Shown here: positions 26,240 through 58,647 of the stretch, piece after piece
How positions within the stretch are numbered: the first letter of the stretch is position 1
How the letters are laid out: every line of letters starts with the position of its first letter
NCBI RefSeq assembly: GCF_023073715.1
Contig: NZ_JADPKA010000017.1
Span: forward strand, 1-64,000
Direction: 5' to 3'
Origin: Bradyrhizobium sp. 164
Lineage (GTDB): Bacteria > Pseudomonadota > Alphaproteobacteria > Rhizobiales > Xanthobacteraceae
Length of the DNA: 64,000 nucleotides
Notes under the pieces: model-generated
Databases searched by the model: none
What the model saw: only the letters and a program-made list of their open reading frames with translations
What the model was told of the DNA's origin: nothing
Program-made: the position numbers and the translations under genes

Positions 26240-26353
26240 TCATTGCGAGCGCAGCGAAGCAATCCAGACTGCCGCCGCGGTGAGATTCTGGATTGCTTCG
26301 CGGAGCCTGTCATCGGGCCGCGCTTCGCGCGGACCGTTGGCTTGCAATCGCGA
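26240..26353. repeat. Palindromic repeat (TCATTGCGAGCGCAGCGAAG family)
   Basis: GCGAAGCAATCCAGA and TCTGGATTGCTTCGC are perfectly inverted 15-mers. Outer ends TCATTGCGAG and CTTGCAATCGCGA are imperfectly inverted. Together with the preceding element it fills the 309-base gap between the YiiX-like gene and csoR; I see no gene there. Confidence 0.8.
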
Positions 26354-51279: not shown

Positions 51280-52092
51280 ATGAATACCGCACGCCTTGTC
51301 GTTCTCGTCATCGCGCTCGCCGCCGGGGGCGTCGCTGCGTATCTGGCGAGCGGCTATCAGAATGGGCCCGCGCCCGTTCTGCCCGTCACCGAGAAACTGC
51401 CGACCGTCGAGGTTCTCGTCGCGAAAACCGACATCGGGCTCGGCCAGGCCGTGAAGCCCGAGGATCTGCAATGGCAGGTCTGGCCGGCGGCGACGGCAAG
51501 CAACGCGTTCATTCGCCGCGACAGCAGGCCCGAGGCGCAGACCCAGATCGCCGGCTCGATCGCGCGCGTGCCGTTGATGCAGGGCGAGCCGATCCGCGAG
51601 CAGAAGCTGGTCAGGGCCGAAGGCTCCGGCTTCATGGCTGCCATCCTGCCCTCCGGCATGCGGGCCGTGTCCACCGAAATTTCAGCCGAGACCGGCGCCG
51701 GCGGCTTCATCCTGCCGAACGACCGCGTCGACATCGTGCTGACCCGCCGCCTGAAGAATCCCGATACCAACGCATCGACCGGCGGCAACGACCTCATCGT
51801 GTCCGAGGTCATTCTGACCAACATCCGCGTGCTCGCGATCGACCAGGCGCCGAAGGAAAAGGACGGCCAGACCGCCGTGATCGGCAAGACCGTCACGCTC
51901 GAGCTCAAGCCCGACCAGGTCGCCACGCTGTCGGCTGCGCGCCAGGGCGGCACGCTCCAGCTCGCGCTGCGGAGCATCGTCGATGCCAACGCAGTCGACG
52001 GGTCGCCCGAGGACCAGGCGGTCAAGCGTCCCGGTGGCGTGAACGTAATTCGTTATGGCGTGCAGGCGCGCCAACTGACGTCACAGAAGTGA
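51280..52092 (+). CDS. cpaB: Flp pilus assembly protein CpaB (RcpC)
   Basis: The protein has 270 residues. One N-terminal membrane helix (LVVLVIALAAGGVAAYLASG) is followed by a SAF domain (VEVLVAKTDIGLGQAVKPED, RVPLMQGEPIREQKLV). The RcpC/CpaB region follows, with AVSTEISAETGAGGFILPND and RVDIVLTRRL. CpaB is a periplasmic partner of the secretin in tight-adherence (Tad) pili. It is the first of four co-directional genes cpaB-cpaC-cpaD-cpaE. Confidence 0.93.
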   Translation: MNTARLVVLVIALAAGGVAAYLASGYQNGPAPVLPVTEKLPTVEVLVAKTDIGLGQAVKPEDLQWQVWPAATASNAFIRRDSRPEAQTQIAGSIARVPLMQGEPIREQKLVRAEGSGFMAAILPSGMRAVSTEISAETGAGGFILPNDRVDIVLTRRLKNPDTNASTGGNDLIVSEVILTNIRVLAIDQAPKEKDGQTAVIGKTVTLELKPDQVATLSAARQGGTLQLALRSIVDANAVDGSPEDQAVKRPGGVNVIRYGVQARQLTSQK

Positions 52093-52105
52093 TGATGGGG
52101 ACAGT

Positions 52106-53623
52106 ATGAACTACGGGGATGATCGGACGGGCCTGCGCATTCGGGGGAAGCGCGCGCGCTCGGTCTTGGCGGGGACGATGCTGCTGCTGGGGCTGCTCGC
52201 AGCCTCCGACCGGCTCAGTGCCGCGGATGCCCCGGTCGGCGATCAGGCACCGATGCAGGCGCCTGATCTCGGTGTGTCCTCGGTCGCGACGATCGCGCCG
52301 GCGCGGACGCGCTTTCTGTCGCTCGGCGTCGGCAAGTCCGTCGTCATCGACCTGCCGCGCGAGGTCAAGGACGTGCTGGTGGCCGATCCCAAGATCGCCA
52401 ATGCCATAATCCGCTCGGCGCAGCGCGCCTATATCATCGGCGGCCAAGTCGGCCAGACCAACGTGGTGTTCTTCACCGCCGACGGCCAGCAGGTCGCCTC
52501 CTACGACATCGCGGTGAAGCGCGACCTCAACGGCATGCGCGCCGCGCTGCGCCAGTCGCTGCCGGGCGTGCAGATCGAAGGCATCGGCGACAGCGTGATG
52601 CTGACCGGCTCGGTCTCGAGCCCGGTCGAGGCACAGCAGGCGGGCGACGTCGCCGCAAAGCTCGTCGGCGGCTCGGACAAGGTCGTCAACAACATCGTCG
52701 TTCGCGGCCGCGACCAGGTGATGCTCAAGGTCGTGGTCGGCGAAGTGCGCCGCGATATCGTCAAGCAGCTGGGCGTGGATCTCAGCGCCAGCCTGAACGC
52801 CGGCACCGCGGTGGTGAATTTCAACAATTCCAACCCGTTCTCGGTGTCTGGCGGACCGATCGTCGCGAGCAACGGACTTGGAGTCGCCGGTCTCGCCAAG
52901 GGCGTCGCCACCGTCAGCGCCACGATGCGTGCGATGGAAAGCGCCGGCGTCATGCGTACGCTCGCCGAGCCGAGCCTGACCGCGATCTCGGGCGAATCCG
53001 CCACCTTCATCGCCGGCGGCGAATTCCCGATTCCGGCCGGCTATTCCTGCGATCCGGTCACCCACGTCTGTACCACCCAGGTCACCTACAAGAAGTTCGG
53101 CATCTCCCTGAACTTCACGCCGGTCGTGCTCAGCGAAGGCCGCATCAGCCTGCGCGTCATGACCGAGGTCTCGGAGCTGTCGAATACGAACGCGATCACA
53201 CTGACGCAGGCGGTGTCCTCGACCTCGAGCAACTCGATCACCATCCCCTCGGTTCAGACCCGCCGAGCCGAAACGACACTGGAAATTCCCTCCGGCGGCT
53301 CGATGGCGATGGCCGGCCTGATCCAGCAGCAGACCAAGCAGGCGATCAACGGCCTGCCCGGCGTCGACCAGGTGCCGATCATCGGCGCGCTGTTCCGCAG
53401 CCAGGACTTCGTCAACAACGAAACCGAGTTGATGGTGATCGTGACGCCCTATGTGGTGCGCGCCGTCGCCCAGAAGGAATTGTCGCGGCCCGACGACGGT
53501 TTCGCGCCGGCCTCCGACGCGCAGACGGCGCTGCTCGGCCGCATGAACCGCCTTTATGGCATCACGCGCCGCGTCGATCCCATCAACGGCACGCCCGGCG
53601 ATTTCGGCTTCATCATCGATTGA
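52106..53623 (+). CDS. cpaC: Tad pilus secretin CpaC (RcpA)
   Basis: This is the outer-membrane channel through which the Flp pilus exits. The protein has 505 residues. An N-terminal signal-like helix (MLLLGLLAASDRLSAADA region), the pilus/secretin N domain (LSLGVGKSVVIDLPREVKDV) and a BON-like domain come first. The secretin core follows, ending with TRRAETTLEIPSGGSMAMAG and GVDQVPIIGALFRSQDF. It starts 13 bases after cpaB. The positively charged N-terminus of about 20 residues before the signal is long, so the start may be a little later. Confidence 0.94.
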   Translation: MNYGDDRTGLRIRGKRARSVLAGTMLLLGLLAASDRLSAADAPVGDQAPMQAPDLGVSSVATIAPARTRFLSLGVGKSVVIDLPREVKDVLVADPKIANAIIRSAQRAYIIGGQVGQTNVVFFTADGQQVASYDIAVKRDLNGMRAALRQSLPGVQIEGIGDSVMLTGSVSSPVEAQQAGDVAAKLVGGSDKVVNNIVVRGRDQVMLKVVVGEVRRDIVKQLGVDLSASLNAGTAVVNFNNSNPFSVSGGPIVASNGLGVAGLAKGVATVSATMRAMESAGVMRTLAEPSLTAISGESATFIAGGEFPIPAGYSCDPVTHVCTTQVTYKKFGISLNFTPVVLSEGRISLRVMTEVSELSNTNAITLTQAVSSTSSNSITIPSVQTRRAETTLEIPSGGSMAMAGLIQQQTKQAINGLPGVDQVPIIGALFRSQDFVNNETELMVIVTPYVVRAVAQKELSRPDDGFAPASDAQTALLGRMNRLYGITRRVDPINGTPGDFGFIID

Positions 53624-53680
53624 CGACGAGCGGACGGCCTGGGGACCGGAGCAGAAACGGGGCAAGAGGGGAATCAAGCG

Positions 53681-54415
53681 ATGACGAGGACGATAGCCGA
53701 CCGACGCCGCCCTTTGAGCGTCGCGCTGGTGCTGACGGGGCTGTCCGTCATGCTGGGCGCGTGCAACACCACCGGTGAAATCGTCACTCAGACAGTGCCG
53801 ACCGACTATCGCCAGCGCCACCCGATCGCGGTGCAGGAGGGTAGGCGCTCGATCGTGATCTTCGTCGGCAAGGCGCGCGGCGGCCTCTCGGCCGCGCAGC
53901 ACGCGGATGTCGCAGGCATTGCCCGGGACTGGATGCGCGAAGGCACCGGCTCCGTCGTCGTCGACGTGCCCGTCGACACCGCGAATTCGCGTGCCGCGGC
54001 GGCGACTTATCGAGAAATCCGTTCCGTGCTCGCATCCGGCGACGTGCCCTCGCGCGCCATCCTCCAGCATCCCTATCGTCCCGAAGACCCCGGCCTCCTG
54101 CCGACGATCCGGCTGAGCTATTCCAAACTCAGCGCAGTGGCCGGACCCTGCGGGTTGTGGCCGGAAGACGTTGGTCCGAACATCCTCGACCCCGGCTACA
54201 ATGAGAACCGGCCGTATTTCAATCTGGGCTGCGCCAGCCAGCGCAACCTCGCGGCCATGATCGACAATCCGGCCGACCTCGAGCAGCCGCGCGCCGAGAC
54301 GCCCGCCTACACCGCACGGCGCGACATCGCCTTCGACCGCTATCGCAAGGGCTCGACGACCGCGACCTCCTATCCCGAGGCCGACAAGGCCAAACTCAGC
54401 GACACCGGCAAATGA
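53681..54415 (+). CDS. cpaD: Tad pilus assembly lipoprotein CpaD
   Basis: The protein has 244 residues. The signal ends in the lipobox VMLGACNTTG, so the mature protein is lipid-anchored. The CpaD body shows TDYRQRHPIAVQEGRRSIVI, VVDVPVDTANSRAAAATYRE, RLSYSKLSAVAGPCGLWPED and NLGCASQRNLAAMIDNPADL, which is the family's closing motif. CpaD supports secretin assembly or localisation. Its stop overlaps the cpaE ATG (ATGA). Confidence 0.93.
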   Translation: MTRTIADRRRPLSVALVLTGLSVMLGACNTTGEIVTQTVPTDYRQRHPIAVQEGRRSIVIFVGKARGGLSAAQHADVAGIARDWMREGTGSVVVDVPVDTANSRAAAATYREIRSVLASGDVPSRAILQHPYRPEDPGLLPTIRLSYSKLSAVAGPCGLWPEDVGPNILDPGYNENRPYFNLGCASQRNLAAMIDNPADLEQPRAETPAYTARRDIAFDRYRKGSTTATSYPEADKAKLSDTGK

Positions 54416-55701
54416 CTGGCATCCACGACGAAGAAGCGGACGATCCGCGGCACCCCGACGAACACATTGCACCGGTTCCTCGCATCTCGGTGCAGGCTTT
54501 TTGCGAGACCGAGCAGACGCTCGCCGCGGTGACCGCGGCGGGGGAGGATCGGCGGCTCGCCAAGGCGCATCTCACTGCCAGGGACGGTGGTCTCGCTGCG
54601 GCAATCGAAGTCTATGAAACGATGCCGACGCCGAACGTGATCGTGATCGAATCCGACGGCACGCGTGACATCCTGGAGGGGCTCGACGACCTCGCCGGCG
54701 TCTGCGACCCCGGCACCCGCGTCGTGGTGATCGGCAATCCCAACGACACCGCGCCCTATCGCGAGCTGGTCCGCCGCGGCGTCAACGACTACGTGGTCGG
54801 GCCAGTCGAAACCCTCGACGTCGTCCGCTCGATCTGTAGCCTGTTCTCGGCATCCGAAGCCATCATCACCGGCCGCGTCATCGCGGTGGTCGGCGCCAAG
54901 GGCGGCGTCGGCGCGTCCACCGTCGCGCACAATGTGGCCTGGACCATCGCCCGCGACCTCGCGCTCGATTCCGTCGTGATCGATCTCGACCTCGCCTTCG
55001 GTACTGCGAGCCTCGACTACAATCAGGATCCGCTGCAGGGCATCGCCAACGCGGTGCTATCGCAGGACCGGCCGGACACGGCGCTGATGGAGCGCCTGCT
55101 TGCCAAATGCACCGAGCGCCTCAGCCTGCTGGCCGCCCCCGCGACGCTCGACCGCGTCTACGATTTCGGCGCCGAAGCTTTTGATGCGGTGTTCGACACG
55201 CTGCGCATGACCACGCCCTGCATCGTGCTCGACGTACCCCACCAATGGTCGGGCTGGACGCGGCGGGCGCTGGTCAACGCCGACGACATCGTGATCGTGG
55301 CCGAGCCCGATCTCGCCAATTTGCGCAACACCAAGAACATGCTGAGCGTGCTCAAGGCGGCGCGCCCGAACGACCGGCCGCCGCTGTATTGTCTCAACCA
55401 GGTCGGCATGCACAAGCGCGCGGAGATCGAGGTCAAAGCTTTCGCCAAGACCATGGAGAGCCAGCCGCTCGCGGTGATCCCGTTCGATTCGAAGCTGTTC
55501 TCGACCGCCGCCAACAACGGCCAGATGATCGCGGAGGTCTCCAAGAGCCACCGCACCACCCTTCTGTTCCAGAACATGGCCAACCGCCTCGCCGGCCGCG
55601 GCGAGGTGAAGAAGCCGAAGCGCTCGCTGCTCGGCCCGCTGCTGAAGAAGCTGAAGGGCAGGTCGGGCCGCGGATCCGCCCCGCATCGCAAGGCGTCGTA
55701 G
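54412..55701 (+). CDS. cpaE: Tad pilus assembly ATPase CpaE (MinD/ParA-like)
   Basis: The protein has 429 residues. The first 150 form a pseudo-receiver domain (NVIVIESDGTRDILEGLDDL, RGVNDYVVGPVETLDVVRSI). The rest is a MinD/ParA-type ATPase with the deviant Walker A VVGAKGGVGASTVAHNVAW, the segment VVIDLDLAFGTASLDYNQDP and VLDVPHQWSGWTRRALVNAD. In Caulobacter CpaE sets the polar site of the pilus machine. The C-terminus is lysine- and arginine-rich. It is coupled to cpaD. No cpaF, tadB or tadC follows; instead a convergent TadD-like gene lies 80 bases on. Confidence 0.94.
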   Translation: MTGIHDEEADDPRHPDEHIAPVPRISVQAFCETEQTLAAVTAAGEDRRLAKAHLTARDGGLAAAIEVYETMPTPNVIVIESDGTRDILEGLDDLAGVCDPGTRVVVIGNPNDTAPYRELVRRGVNDYVVGPVETLDVVRSICSLFSASEAIITGRVIAVVGAKGGVGASTVAHNVAWTIARDLALDSVVIDLDLAFGTASLDYNQDPLQGIANAVLSQDRPDTALMERLLAKCTERLSLLAAPATLDRVYDFGAEAFDAVFDTLRMTTPCIVLDVPHQWSGWTRRALVNADDIVIVAEPDLANLRNTKNMLSVLKAARPNDRPPLYCLNQVGMHKRAEIEVKAFAKTMESQPLAVIPFDSKLFSTAANNGQMIAEVSKSHRTTLLFQNMANRLAGRGEVKKPKRSLLGPLLKKLKGRSGRGSAPHRKAS

Positions 55702-55781: not shown

Positions 55782-56555
55782 CTATTTGTCCGCCCGCTGC
55801 TGCTTCTTCGCCAGCAATTGCCGCAGCGCCGTGACCTTTGCCGCCGCCTGGTCCGGCGGCAGGTCGGCCTTCACGATGGCCTCGGCCTCGGCTTGCTTTC
55901 CTTCCAGCCCCAGCACCAGCGCGAGATTGGCGCGCACGCGGGAATCGGCGGGATTGCGCTCATGCGCGCGGCGCATCGTTTCCTCCGCCCGCGGCAGATT
56001 ATTCTGGAGCATGTAAGACAGGCCGAGATTGGACAAAACCTGCGGCTCGTCGGGCACGATCTTCAAGGCGGTCGCATAATATTGCTGCGCCTCCTCATTG
56101 CGGCCGAGCTGATCGAGCGCCGCGCCCTGCGCCGACAGGATGCGCCAGTCCGGATCCTCGGGCGTATGCGCTCGGCCGAGGACGTCGAAGGCCTGCTGGA
56201 AATTGCCGTTGTCGGCGAGCGCGCGGCCATAGCCGGCGAGCAATGCCTTGTTGCTGGGATGGCCGAGCACGGCCTGCTCCATCACCGCGACCGCCTGCGC
56301 CCGCTGGCCGCTCTCGCGCAGCGCCTTGCCATAGGCGAGCACAACGCCGGGATCACCGGGCTTGGCGCGATAGCGTTCGCGCAAGGTGTCCATGTCCGGC
56401 TTGGCGTCGGCCTTCACACTGGCTTCAGATCTAACGCCGAGCGCGCCGGTGACATCCTCGATGCCATTGGTCTGGCAGCCGGCGAGGACAAGCACCATCA
56501 ACGCGGGAAGCAGGAATTTCGCCGAAGGAGAGGCGGGAGACGGACGCTTGGACAT
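55782..56555 (-). CDS. tadD: TadD-like tetratricopeptide lipoprotein
   Basis: The protein has 257 residues. The signal ends in the lipobox VLVLAGCQTNG. At least four TPR units follow (DPGVVLAYGKALRESGQRAQ, NKALLAGYGRALADNGNFQQ, DWRILSAQGAALDQLGRNEE, EPQVLSNLGLSYMLQNNLPR). This is the architecture of TadD, an accessory outer-membrane-side lipoprotein of Tad systems. The placement beside cpaE supports that, although the strand is opposite. No Shine-Dalgarno is visible; a perfect palindrome sits directly before the ATG. Confidence 0.85.
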   Translation of the reverse strand: MSKRPSPASPSAKFLLPALMVLVLAGCQTNGIEDVTGALGVRSEASVKADAKPDMDTLRERYRAKPGDPGVVLAYGKALRESGQRAQAVAVMEQAVLGHPSNKALLAGYGRALADNGNFQQAFDVLGRAHTPEDPDWRILSAQGAALDQLGRNEEAQQYYATALKIVPDEPQVLSNLGLSYMLQNNLPRAEETMRRAHERNPADSRVRANLALVLGLEGKQAEAEAIVKADLPPDQAAAKVTALRQLLAKKQQRADK

Positions 56556-56556
56556 A

Positions 56557-56583
56557 CTCTGATCACTCGGCGACTGATCAGAG
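56557..56583. promoter_or_regulatory. Palindrome CTCTGATCA-N9-TGATCAGAG before the TadD-like start
   Basis: Perfect 9-base arms are separated by 9 bases, and the site ends one base before the ATG. As DNA it could be a repressor operator; as RNA it would fold over the ribosome-binding region of a gene that has no clear Shine-Dalgarno. Confidence 0.55.
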
Positions 56584-56635
56584 ATGCTTACCCATTAACG
56601 CTAAAGCCCCGTTAAGGAGGCGCGGCCATTAAGGC

Positions 56636-56881
56636 CTAATCGACGAACTCCGCGCCGAACTCGCAGCCGATGCGCCAGCGCAGGCGGCATTGGCGGGAAT
56701 AATCGGGCGCGAAGATGATGGTGAATTGCGGCGGCACTTCCAGGAATTCCGCCACCACTTTCACGCCGCCATCCGAGATATCCGTGATCGTGCAGTCGCG
56801 CGGCAGCGAGCCCGCGCCAAAGTGGATTTTGGCGAGCCGGCTGCATACCCGACGTTCGCTTCTCCGGCGATTTGCAAGCAT
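56636..56881 (-). CDS. Small single-domain PilZ protein (c-di-GMP binding)
   Basis: The protein has 81 residues and is a lone PilZ domain. The two ligand motifs are present: an arginine cluster near the N-terminus (NRRRSERRV, the RxxxR region) and the ITDISDGGVKV strand (D/NxSxxG). PilZ domains bind cyclic di-GMP and relay it to surface structures. Its neighbours are the Tad genes on one side and a ComM-type ATPase on the other, so a role in attachment is possible but not shown. GGTGAAG is found before the ATG at 56881. Confidence 0.87.
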   Translation of the reverse strand: MLANRRRSERRVCSRLAKIHFGAGSLPRDCTITDISDGGVKVVAEFLEVPPQFTIIFAPDYSRQCRLRWRIGCEFGAEFVD

Positions 56882-57108
56882 TTGAATTCTTCACCCGTTA
56901 GACCACGGCCCATCCCGCAAGGGTAGGAGTAGCGGACATTCGTTGGAATGTGCTGAGGAGAGCCGCTCGCATTCGAGGTGTAGTGTCCGCTTCACGTTTA
57001 CGATCGGGTAGGATTTTCTCGGTCCTAGGGCATGTTCCCGTATTGTTCTTGCGAAAGGCGCTAGGCTCTGCTACCCCTAATTGCGCGAAAGGGCAGGCTG
57101 GTTCGAGC

Positions 57109-58647
57109 ATGGTTCAGCGGGTTTCTACCGTCGCCTTTGAGGGGATTGAGGCCCGTGCGGTCGACGTGCAGGTGCAGGTCGCCCCGGGGCTGCCGGCCTT
57201 CGCCATCGTCGGCCTGCCGGACAAGGCGGTGTCGGAGGCACGCGAGCGGGTCCGTTCGGCTCTGATCGCCTCGGGGCTGGCGCTGCCGGCGCGGCGGATC
57301 ATCGTCAATCTGGCCCCGGCCGACCTGCCCAAGGAGGGCAGCCATTACGACCTGCCGATCGCGCTCGGGCTGATGGCGGCGATCGGCGCGATCCCGCCCG
57401 ATGCACTGACCGGCTTCACAGTTCTCGGCGAGCTCGGCCTCGACGGACCGATCGCGCCGGTCGCAGGTGTCCTGCCCGCCGCGATCGGCGCCAATGCGCG
57501 CGAGGAGGGCCTGATCTGCCCGGCAGCCTGCGGCTCGGAGGCGGCCTGGGCGAGCCCGGACATCCAGATCATGGCCGCACAATCACTCATTCAGATCGCC
57601 AACCATTTCAAGGGCACGCAGGTGCTGTCGCGGCCCTCACCGAAGGTGCATGAGGCCGCCGCCTCGTCCCTCGACCTGCGCGATATCAAGGGCCAGGAGA
57701 GCGCCAAGCGGGCGCTGGAGATCGCAGCCGCGGGCGGACATCACCTGCTGATGATCGGCGCGCCCGGCGCCGGCAAATCGATGCTGGCGGCGCGCCTGCC
57801 CTCGATCCTGCCGCCGCTGTCGCCCGGCGAACTGCTCGAAGTCTCGATGATCGCGTCCGTCGCCGGCGAGATCGAGGGCGGCGCGCTGACCGCGCGGCGG
57901 CCGTTCCGCTCGCCGCATCATTCCGCCAGCATGGCCGCGCTCACCGGTGGCGGCGTGCGCGCCAAACCCGGCGAGATCTCGCTGGCGCATCAGGGTGTGC
58001 TGTTCCTCGACGAGCTGCCGGAGTTCGATCCGCGCGTGCTGGATTCGCTGCGCCAGCCCCTGGAGAACGGCGAGGTCGCGGTGTCGCGCGCCAATCATCG
58101 CGTCACCTACCCTGCCCGCTTCATGCTGGTGGCCGCGATGAATCCGTGCCGCTGCGGCAACGCGTTCGAGCCGGGCTATGCCTGCAAGCGCGGCCGCATC
58201 GACCGCTGCACCGGCGACTACCAGGCGCGCATCTCCGGTCCGTTGATGGATCGCATCGATCTGCGCATCGAGGTGCCGGCGGTGACCGCGGCCGATTTGA
58301 TTCTGCCGCCGCCGGCGGAAGGCTCCGCCGAAGTCGCCGCGCGCGTGGCGGCGGCACGCGACATCCAGCTTGCGCGTTATGCGGATGCCGGCCTGCCGAA
58401 CGTCCGTACCAATGCCGAGGCGCCGGCCTCGGTCCTCGAAGAGATCGCAAAACCGGATGCGCAAGGCGCCAAGCTATTGCGGGACGCGGCGGAGACCATG
58501 CGGCTGTCGGCGCGCGGCTATCACCGCGTGCTGCGGGTCGCGCGCACACTGGCCGATCTCGACAACGCGGACAAGATCGGCCGGCTGCACCTCGCCGAAG
58601 CGCTATCCTACCGCGCACTCGCGGAGGATGTGCGGCAGATGGCGTGA
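57109..58647 (+). CDS. comM: YifB/ComM-family Mg-chelatase-like AAA+ ATPase
   Basis: The protein has 512 residues. The N-terminal Lon-protease-like fold (VQRVSTVAFEGIEARAVDVQ, KEGSHYDLPIALGLMAAIGA) is followed by the Mg-chelatase AAA+ module. That module has Walker A in MIGAPGAGKSMLAARLP, Walker B in GVLFLDELPEFD, and a zinc-like NPCRCGNAFEPGYACKRGRI segment. ComM is a branch-migration helicase used in natural transformation of naturally competent bacteria; in others its role is open. I chose MVQRVSTVAFEG at 57109, since the upstream frame to 56950 is not homologous. Confidence 0.94.
   Translation: MVQRVSTVAFEGIEARAVDVQVQVAPGLPAFAIVGLPDKAVSEARERVRSALIASGLALPARRIIVNLAPADLPKEGSHYDLPIALGLMAAIGAIPPDALTGFTVLGELGLDGPIAPVAGVLPAAIGANAREEGLICPAACGSEAAWASPDIQIMAAQSLIQIANHFKGTQVLSRPSPKVHEAAASSLDLRDIKGQESAKRALEIAAAGGHHLLMIGAPGAGKSMLAARLPSILPPLSPGELLEVSMIASVAGEIEGGALTARRPFRSPHHSASMAALTGGGVRAKPGEISLAHQGVLFLDELPEFDPRVLDSLRQPLENGEVAVSRANHRVTYPARFMLVAAMNPCRCGNAFEPGYACKRGRIDRCTGDYQARISGPLMDRIDLRIEVPAVTAADLILPPPAEGSAEVAARVAAARDIQLARYADAGLPNVRTNAEAPASVLEEIAKPDAQGAKLLRDAAETMRLSARGYHRVLRVARTLADLDNADKIGRLHLAEALSYRALAEDVRQMA

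Follow-up and report, generated by a model that had tools for sequence, protein, structure and literature searches.

A probable RNA stem-loop predicted to cover the start codon of a tadD-like gene in the partial Tad cluster of Bradyrhizobium

Does the perfect palindrome directly before the start codon of a tadD-like gene in Bradyrhizobium sp. 164 serve as an operator in the DNA, or does it encode an RNA hairpin in the leader of the mRNA? Both possibilities had been left side by side by an earlier sequence-only reading of the window, i.e. the whole analyzed stretch of 64,000 nucleotides from this genome. The following features of the window are relevant to this question.

Positions 51280-55701, plus strand: cpaB, cpaC, cpaD and cpaE, a partial Tad cluster convergent with tadD
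Positions 55782-56555, minus strand: tadD-like TPR lipoprotein gene encoding 257 aa, with an LAGC lipobox recognized by eye; its start is covered by the predicted hairpin
Positions 56552-56587, minus strand: predicted RNA hairpin, GCAU CUCUGAUCA ... UGAUCAGAG (U bulge) AUGU, with the start codon in the outer stem
Positions 56557-56583, no strand assigned: perfect 9-9-9 palindrome CTCTGATCA-CTCGGCGAC-TGATCAGAG, with the arms CTCTGATCA and TGATCAGAG and a 9-nt loop
Positions 56595-56615, minus strand: box TTAAC-N6-TTAG-N-GTTAA, which contains the CtrA-like TTAA-N7-TTAG; presumed promoter or activator element of tadD
Positions 56636-56881, minus strand: PilZ-domain gene (PF07238, E 1.7e-6), upstream of tadD on the same strand

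The palindrome is present exactly at 56557-56583, as had been described, with a single T (56556) between it and the ATG of the tadD-like gene (56555-56553) on the minus strand. It is the sole copy at up to three mismatches in the 64-kb window, where 3 of 100 shuffles hold at least one, and the sole copy at zero to two mismatches in the whole genome (7.44 Mb), with three other places at three mismatches. A repeat or mobile element was rejected because the palindrome is single-copy in the genome. The window contains 28 perfect inverted repeats with arms of at least 9 and loops of 3-20, compared to 6-16 in eight dinucleotide shuffles. The self-palindrome TGATCA within each arm occurs 30 times, compared to about 16 expected. 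The longest perfect inverted repeat of this kind in the window has 15 bp and an 18-nt loop (26254-26301). The bare symmetry of the palindrome is not unusual; what exceeds chance is its conservation. A chance palindrome was rejected since it is kept in 66 of 66 relatives and rebuilt elsewhere with other letters. A search for intrinsic terminators in 56500-57150 returned none, and a terminator reading was rejected because no T run follows the stem. A search of Rfam 15 gave nothing at the hairpin and a single chance match (E 6.8) at another place in the stretch.

The tadD-like gene is convergent with cpaE (54412-55701), which is the last gene of cpaB, cpaC, cpaD, cpaE and lies on the opposite strand. 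The sequence-only reading saw in the palindrome a possible means of controlling tadD separately from cpaBCDE; irrespective of such an effect, the two already differ in strand. No tadA, tadB or tadC gene was seen beside cpaBCDE in the window. A second tadD-like gene is located on contig C111 beside cpaD and tadA-, tadB- and tadC-type genes, which together make up a complete paralogous cluster. For Bradyrhizobium diazoefficiens USDA 110, the available part of PMC12918737 describes a partial Tad cluster 1 and a complete Tad cluster 2. As far as this description extends, cpaBCDE and tadD of the window match the partial cluster, and the genes on C111 match the complete one. The assignment of both loci to clusters 1 and 2 is our own and was made by their fit to this source. 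In the available main text of PMC12918737 the word 'tadD' is absent, and the sole mentions of 'promoter' and 'transcription start' concern a pilin gene and a reference title. No established role of the partial Tad cluster was found in the literature searched.

To place the palindrome among related leaders, four groups were compared. Group A comprises close orthologues with 66 leaders, one per genome and including that of the window, which are a subset of the group-A places listed. Group B comprises more distant orthologues of about 60-70% protein identity (87 loci from 80 genomes, seven read twice). Group C contains the cluster-2 paralogues and group O the homologues from other genera. The tests used distinct leaders, namely 32 from A, 67 from B, 23 from C and 22 from O, and membership in A or B was decided in part from similarity and the type of leader. 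L221, although retrieved with group B, was assigned to C on account of its group-C leader. For L158 and L171, the start codon was chosen manually, and a later ATG of L171 was used in the folding-energy and arm-swap tests. A nests among B in a protein tree of 31 rows (10 A, 21 B). A 98/91 branch has 30 of these rows on one side, and B_L174 is the single row on the other side of this A+B branch. Synteny was checked at one group-B locus (L028), where a plainly CpaE-like frame and the tadD-like gene face each other in the arrangement of the window.

Within group A, the element is strongly conserved. The right arm GATCAGAG and the GCAT before the left arm are present in all 66 leaders and the exact left arm CTCTGATC in 57 of 66, with loops of 9-14 nt comprising 16 different strings. 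The sequence-only reading had made its proposal depend on conservation in close relatives, and this conservation is present in 66 of 66 close orthologues. All nine left-arm deviations fall within the 8-nt arm and are uncompensated, and the right arm never changes. An exchange of arms within this group, whose arms hardly vary, showed no gain for the leaders' own arms (1999 of 2000 permutations as good). The invariance of the right arm in group A may also have a reason of its own.

In 52 of the 66 group-A loci, the box is immediately preceded by the tail of the PilZ gene, and in the other 14 by different DNA (L004, L008, L018, L019, L111, L118, L120, L125, L126, L134, L139, L141, L144 and L149), and several of these loci carry a GGAAAACCGCT...TCATGC-like stretch that resembles a dispersed repeat. 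Since box and hairpin are intact in the 14 loci with other upstream DNA, the combined element belongs to tadD.

Exact copies of the box are limited to two sites in the genome, each preceding a tadD-like gene (56595-56615 and contig C111:113811-113831). At up to two mismatches, it was found at 4 and 4 places on the two strands compared to 9 and 6 for a reversed control. Since the control finds more, just the two exact places are meaningful. The mean ungapped pairwise identity of the box is 0.94 in group A and 0.92 in group B, compared to 0.34-0.43 in 60 upstream bases; in group A, the 30 bases that immediately precede the box reach 0.43, a value that the ungapped comparison understates. In total, 208 of 213 loci match the box pattern, which itself requires TAG at the second half-site. 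The unmatched loci L061, L062, L064, L070 and L180 were left out. One of these, L180, belongs to group B, lies at a contig end and was used in no test; its box and its stem CTCTGaCC/GGcCAGAG each contain one mismatch. A looser box lies upstream of each of the 23 homologues read in the remaining genera of the family, and upstream of 6 of the 10 read in other families; L064, one of the four misses, is cut by the contig end.

By sequence alone, the box is CtrA-like. The CtrA consensus is given as TTAA-N7-TTAAC in the available part of PMC7200025 and the CtrA box as TTAA-N7-TTAA in that of PMC11527210. The box of the window reads TTAA-N7-TTAG and ends in GTTAA, and is thus one base off the former consensus as stated there. 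It differs from these boxes in that its second half-site ends in G and that its exact 21-bp form is limited to the two tadD-like genes of the genome. A scan for sigma-70 promoters found none. In the paralogue and in other genera, the box is mostly followed by a CTATTG-like sequence. The box therefore looks older than the hairpin, since it is present in the paralogue and in other genera and the hairpin was found only before the gene of the Bradyrhizobium partial cluster.

Group B shares the box with group A, and a stem made of different letters usually follows 12-14 nt after it (range 9-17). Perfect stems of at least 6 bp in this group include CTGGAC/GTCCAG, TTGACC/GGTCAA, CTGACC/GGTCAG, CTGGTC/GACCAG, CGGAAC/GTTCCG, TTGGCC/GGCCAA, CTGGGGT/ACCCCAG and TTCTGGTCGG/CCGACCAGAA, with loops of 4-17 nt. 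Watson-Crick stems of at least 6 bp were found in 38 of 67 distinct B leaders compared to 5.2 after base shuffling, and in 30 of 32 distinct A leaders compared to 1.6. The leaders of the paralogues (1 of 23; 2.5 shuffled) and of other genera (3 of 22; 2.9 shuffled) show no excess.

Whether the two arms of a leader fit each other was assessed by exchanging right arms between leaders. In group B, the own arms reach -10.10 kcal/mol compared to -7.57 kcal/mol for swapped arms, and none of 2000 permutations was as good. The permutations retain shared ancestry, the weight of which is lessened in a reduced B set of 29 leaders; there, the values are -10.99 and -7.81 kcal/mol, with none of 5000 permutations as good. 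The mean pairing loss on exchange is 2.5 kcal/mol in B and 3.2 kcal/mol in the reduced set. No loss was seen in C and O (1993 and 609 of 2000 permutations as good), and control windows upstream of the box and at the gene start of the same loci gave nothing comparable, the closest being the B upstream window with 0.5 kcal/mol and 104 of 2000. The own right arm is the best partner of a B leader in just 4 of 67 cases.

Two alignments were used to follow the pairs. In an alignment of 32 A and 5 B leaders with 32 distinct rows, 92.9% of the cells are paired compared to 21-39% with the 3' side slid, and nine cells are doubly changed compared to 1.4 in shuffles. In the same alignment, three pairs show a double change, a number reached by 29 of 500 shuffles, and further pair types, one of five measures, lie below the shuffles. 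In a set of 54 leaders, 174 of 198 inner-pair cells are paired compared to 154.5 after shuffling, with none of 5000 shuffles as high. This set holds 10 of 32 A and 44 of 67 B leaders from the 99 distinct leaders, with 33 distinct arm pairs and other architectures left out. In this set, the C that closes the left arm, the A, G and T after it and one C within the GCCG core show no variation or a conservation of at least 90%.

The folding energy was less informative. The A leaders stand out with a mean z of -2.12, and the B leaders are not set apart from their own upstream windows (mean z -0.77 vs -0.67). Because this test is weak, the arm-swap, stem-count and pair-count tests were relied on. Covariation, as tested for a structured mRNA leader, was found; the signal comes from group B, with none within A alone. 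Since the letters and the spacing of the arms change while pairing is kept, which a dimeric regulator could hardly follow, an RNA stem is favored over a DNA operator. A conserved RNA stem in the tadD leader is therefore highly probable, judged from these sequence comparisons, and requires transcription to start at or before the left arm. If transcription started inside the left arm, which a -10 element at 56585-56590 would allow, the RNA stem would be shortened.

The predicted fold of 56526-56594 has -21.7 kcal/mol and a z of -2.85, with 1 of 200 shuffles as good. In this prediction, the GCAU before the left arm pairs with AUGU, which comprises the start codon plus one further base, and a single bulged U interrupts the helix. 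As the conserved GCAT pairs with the ATG, the start codon would lie in the stem. The mean predicted probability of pairing between start codon and leader is 0.82 in group A (0.30 shuffled; above 0.5 in 28 of 32) and 0.65 in group B (0.39 shuffled; above 0.5 in 53 of 67). It is 0.30 in the other genera (0.42 shuffled) and 0.68 in the paralogue leaders, which have no hairpin (0.48 shuffled). Since the latter are also above their shuffles, start-codon pairing is weaker as a distinguishing mark. The perfect stems of group B end 3-12 nt before the start, 13 of 38 of them at 10-12 nt. In this group, the left arm lies a median of 13 nt from the box (interquartile range 12-14), and the distance from stem to start codon has an interquartile range of 3-9.5. 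This variable gap suggests that the exact distance to the AUG is not selected in B, while the distance to the box is steadier, a pattern that leaves room for a stabilizing 5' hairpin. The sequence-only reading had also noted a missing Shine-Dalgarno sequence, and this extends to the whole gene family: GGAG, GAGG or AGGA at -24 to -3 occurs in 2 of 32 A, 1 of 67 B, 0 of 23 C and 0 of 22 O distinct leaders, thus in 3 of 144 in total.

The distribution of the hairpin is narrow. In its own genome, a covariance model found one place, the palindrome, among the 150 of 5621 first-look candidates that were scored. The hairpin model matched both of two Bradyrhizobium genomes, and 59 genomes from the rest of the family gave one weak match (E 0.53). 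It was also applied to 76 B loci kept out of its construction, of which it detected 16 at an E-value of at most 10 (10 at E < 0.1) and missed 60; none of the 69 loci from paralogues, other genera and other families was matched. A total of 112 stretches of GTDB genomes contain the exact palindrome with a loop of 9-12 nt, and 71 of them have the box before and an ATG after it. By title, these 71 are 69 from Bradyrhizobium, one from Bradyrhizobiaceae (L286) and one from Frankia sp. RB7 (L273), and none of the other 41 is titled Bradyrhizobium. No Bradyrhizobium-titled GTDB stretch has the palindrome elsewhere. No report of this hairpin was found in the literature searched, in which subscription journals are little covered.

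Several single loci were conspicuous in these searches. L273, titled Frankia sp. RB7, has a Bradyrhizobium tadD leader and box, and its title is probably wrong. The arms CTCTGATCA/TGATCAGAG also occur in Actinobacteria, in L243, L290 and L313 (Brevibacterium) and in L288, L300 and L316 (Streptomyces), where they are flanked by CCC/GGG. These copies lie just after the apparent end of a tRNA gene and are probably unrelated terminators. L231 is an extra, divergent tadD-like copy in genome G172 from another genus with a GTTCG/CGAAC inverted repeat after the box, which is possibly an independent hairpin.

In the arrangement that we propose, the palindrome would be the DNA of a stem-loop in the mRNA leader of the tadD-like gene of the Bradyrhizobium partial Tad cluster. 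The TTAAC-N6-TTAG-N-GTTAA box would mark the promoter, with the transcription start lying upstream of the left arm. A hairpin would then form in the leader of at least about 30 nt; its 3' arm would stop one base short of the AUG, and its outer part would pair the conserved GCAU with the start codon. Without a Shine-Dalgarno sequence, such a stem should keep initiation low unless it is opened, and the conserved loop core CAGUYGCCG could be read for this purpose by a protein or a small RNA. The RNA stem itself is well supported, and the effect on translation is what we infer from it. Holding back initiation at the covered start codon is somewhat favored as the main effect of the hairpin. What the sequences support is a stem of the RNA type that is conserved in the relatives examined and confined to this gene, together with the predicted pairing of the start codon.

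The strongest competitor, although unlikely, is a 5'-terminal stem-loop that protects the mRNA from decay, with the box fixing the transcription start and translation being affected indirectly. In the ompA leader, a stabilizing stem-loop forms right at the 5' end of the mRNA. The hairpin described here would resemble it as a stem-loop near the 5' end with a fixed position relative to the promoter; the near-constant distance of the B left arm from the box and the more variable distance to the start agree with this. However, the hairpin here reaches into the start codon, and a group-A stem that runs into this codon, together with GCAT in 66 of 66 leaders, is more than a protective hairpin needs. 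Another, rather improbable explanation is a binding platform, where the stem presents the loop CAGUYGCCG to a protein or small RNA and start-codon pairing is secondary. The conserved C of the left arm, the A, G and T after it and the C of the GCCG core in the 54 A and B leaders would fit such a role, but loop length and much of the loop vary, and some B leaders of the CGGAAC type have a different loop.

Of the two possibilities raised at the outset, the hairpin is favored by the covarying stems, the variable loops and a predicted stem that includes the start codon. An operator, i.e. an inverted repeat beside the start codon to which a dimeric regulator, either repressor or activator, would bind, is very unlikely. 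Its perfect symmetry, the near-invariant arms of group A, the self-palindromic TGATCA half-sites and the closeness to the presumed promoter would all suit it, but the arm spacing is not fixed (4-17 nt in B, 9-14 nt in A), the arm sequences turn over among species with pairing kept, and the palindrome occurs once in the genome. The least probable alternative, to which we give hardly any weight, is a non-canonical ribosome binding site, in which the left arm would mask a GUGAUC at the right arm that is able to pair with GAUCAC in the 16S tail GGAUCACCUCCUUU. This tail is present in the own genome, the A region from -24 to -3 binds it at -10.2 kcal/mol compared to -6.5 kcal/mol shuffled, and such pairing would account for a right arm that, unlike the left, never varies in A. 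Against this, no such pairing exists in B (-6.0 vs -5.8 kcal/mol shuffled), so it cannot be the general function; moreover, part of group A has AGATC for TGATC, and as GATC is self-complementary, both arms match the tail.

A comparison with known leader hairpins leads to the ROSE-type RNA thermometers, described for hspA of Bradyrhizobium japonicum and ibpA of Pseudomonas in the available part of PMC3669281. They share with the tadD leader a short hairpin just before the start codon that is able to hold the ribosome off. According to the same part of that source, a Shine-Dalgarno sequence is masked in ROSE elements through imperfect base pairing, and the predicted structures of the Pseudomonas elements leave their AUG unpaired. 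In contrast, the hairpin here has no Shine-Dalgarno sequence and a perfect stem, with the AUG predicted inside. The predicted pairing of the start codon is nearly independent of temperature, from 0.88 at 20 °C to 0.81 at 50 °C, and this small change makes a simple thermometer unlikely. A ROSE-type thermometer was rejected due to the missing Shine-Dalgarno sequence, the hardly heat-dependent predicted pairing and the lack of an Rfam match.

The element would thus be a leader hairpin, which is a known kind, and this example is unreported in the literature searched and absent from Rfam 15. It is unusual in that its predicted stem includes the start codon, there is no Shine-Dalgarno sequence and the stem sequence turns over within one genus. 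It provides a small and clean case of an RNA stem that is recognizable by covariation alone despite the turnover of its letters in a single genus. As a speculative extension, the partial-cluster tadD may have gained the hairpin after the duplication of the Tad genes as a genus-specific RNA switch that a partner acting in trans opens via the loop. If this were true, the TPR lipoprotein would be made only under a specific condition, and the other copy would not be controlled in this way. A ready comparison is available in the same genome, as the paralogue has the same upstream box without the hairpin. For soybean and other legume symbionts, the predicted hairpin would offer a concrete and testable control point of a duplicated pilus gene.
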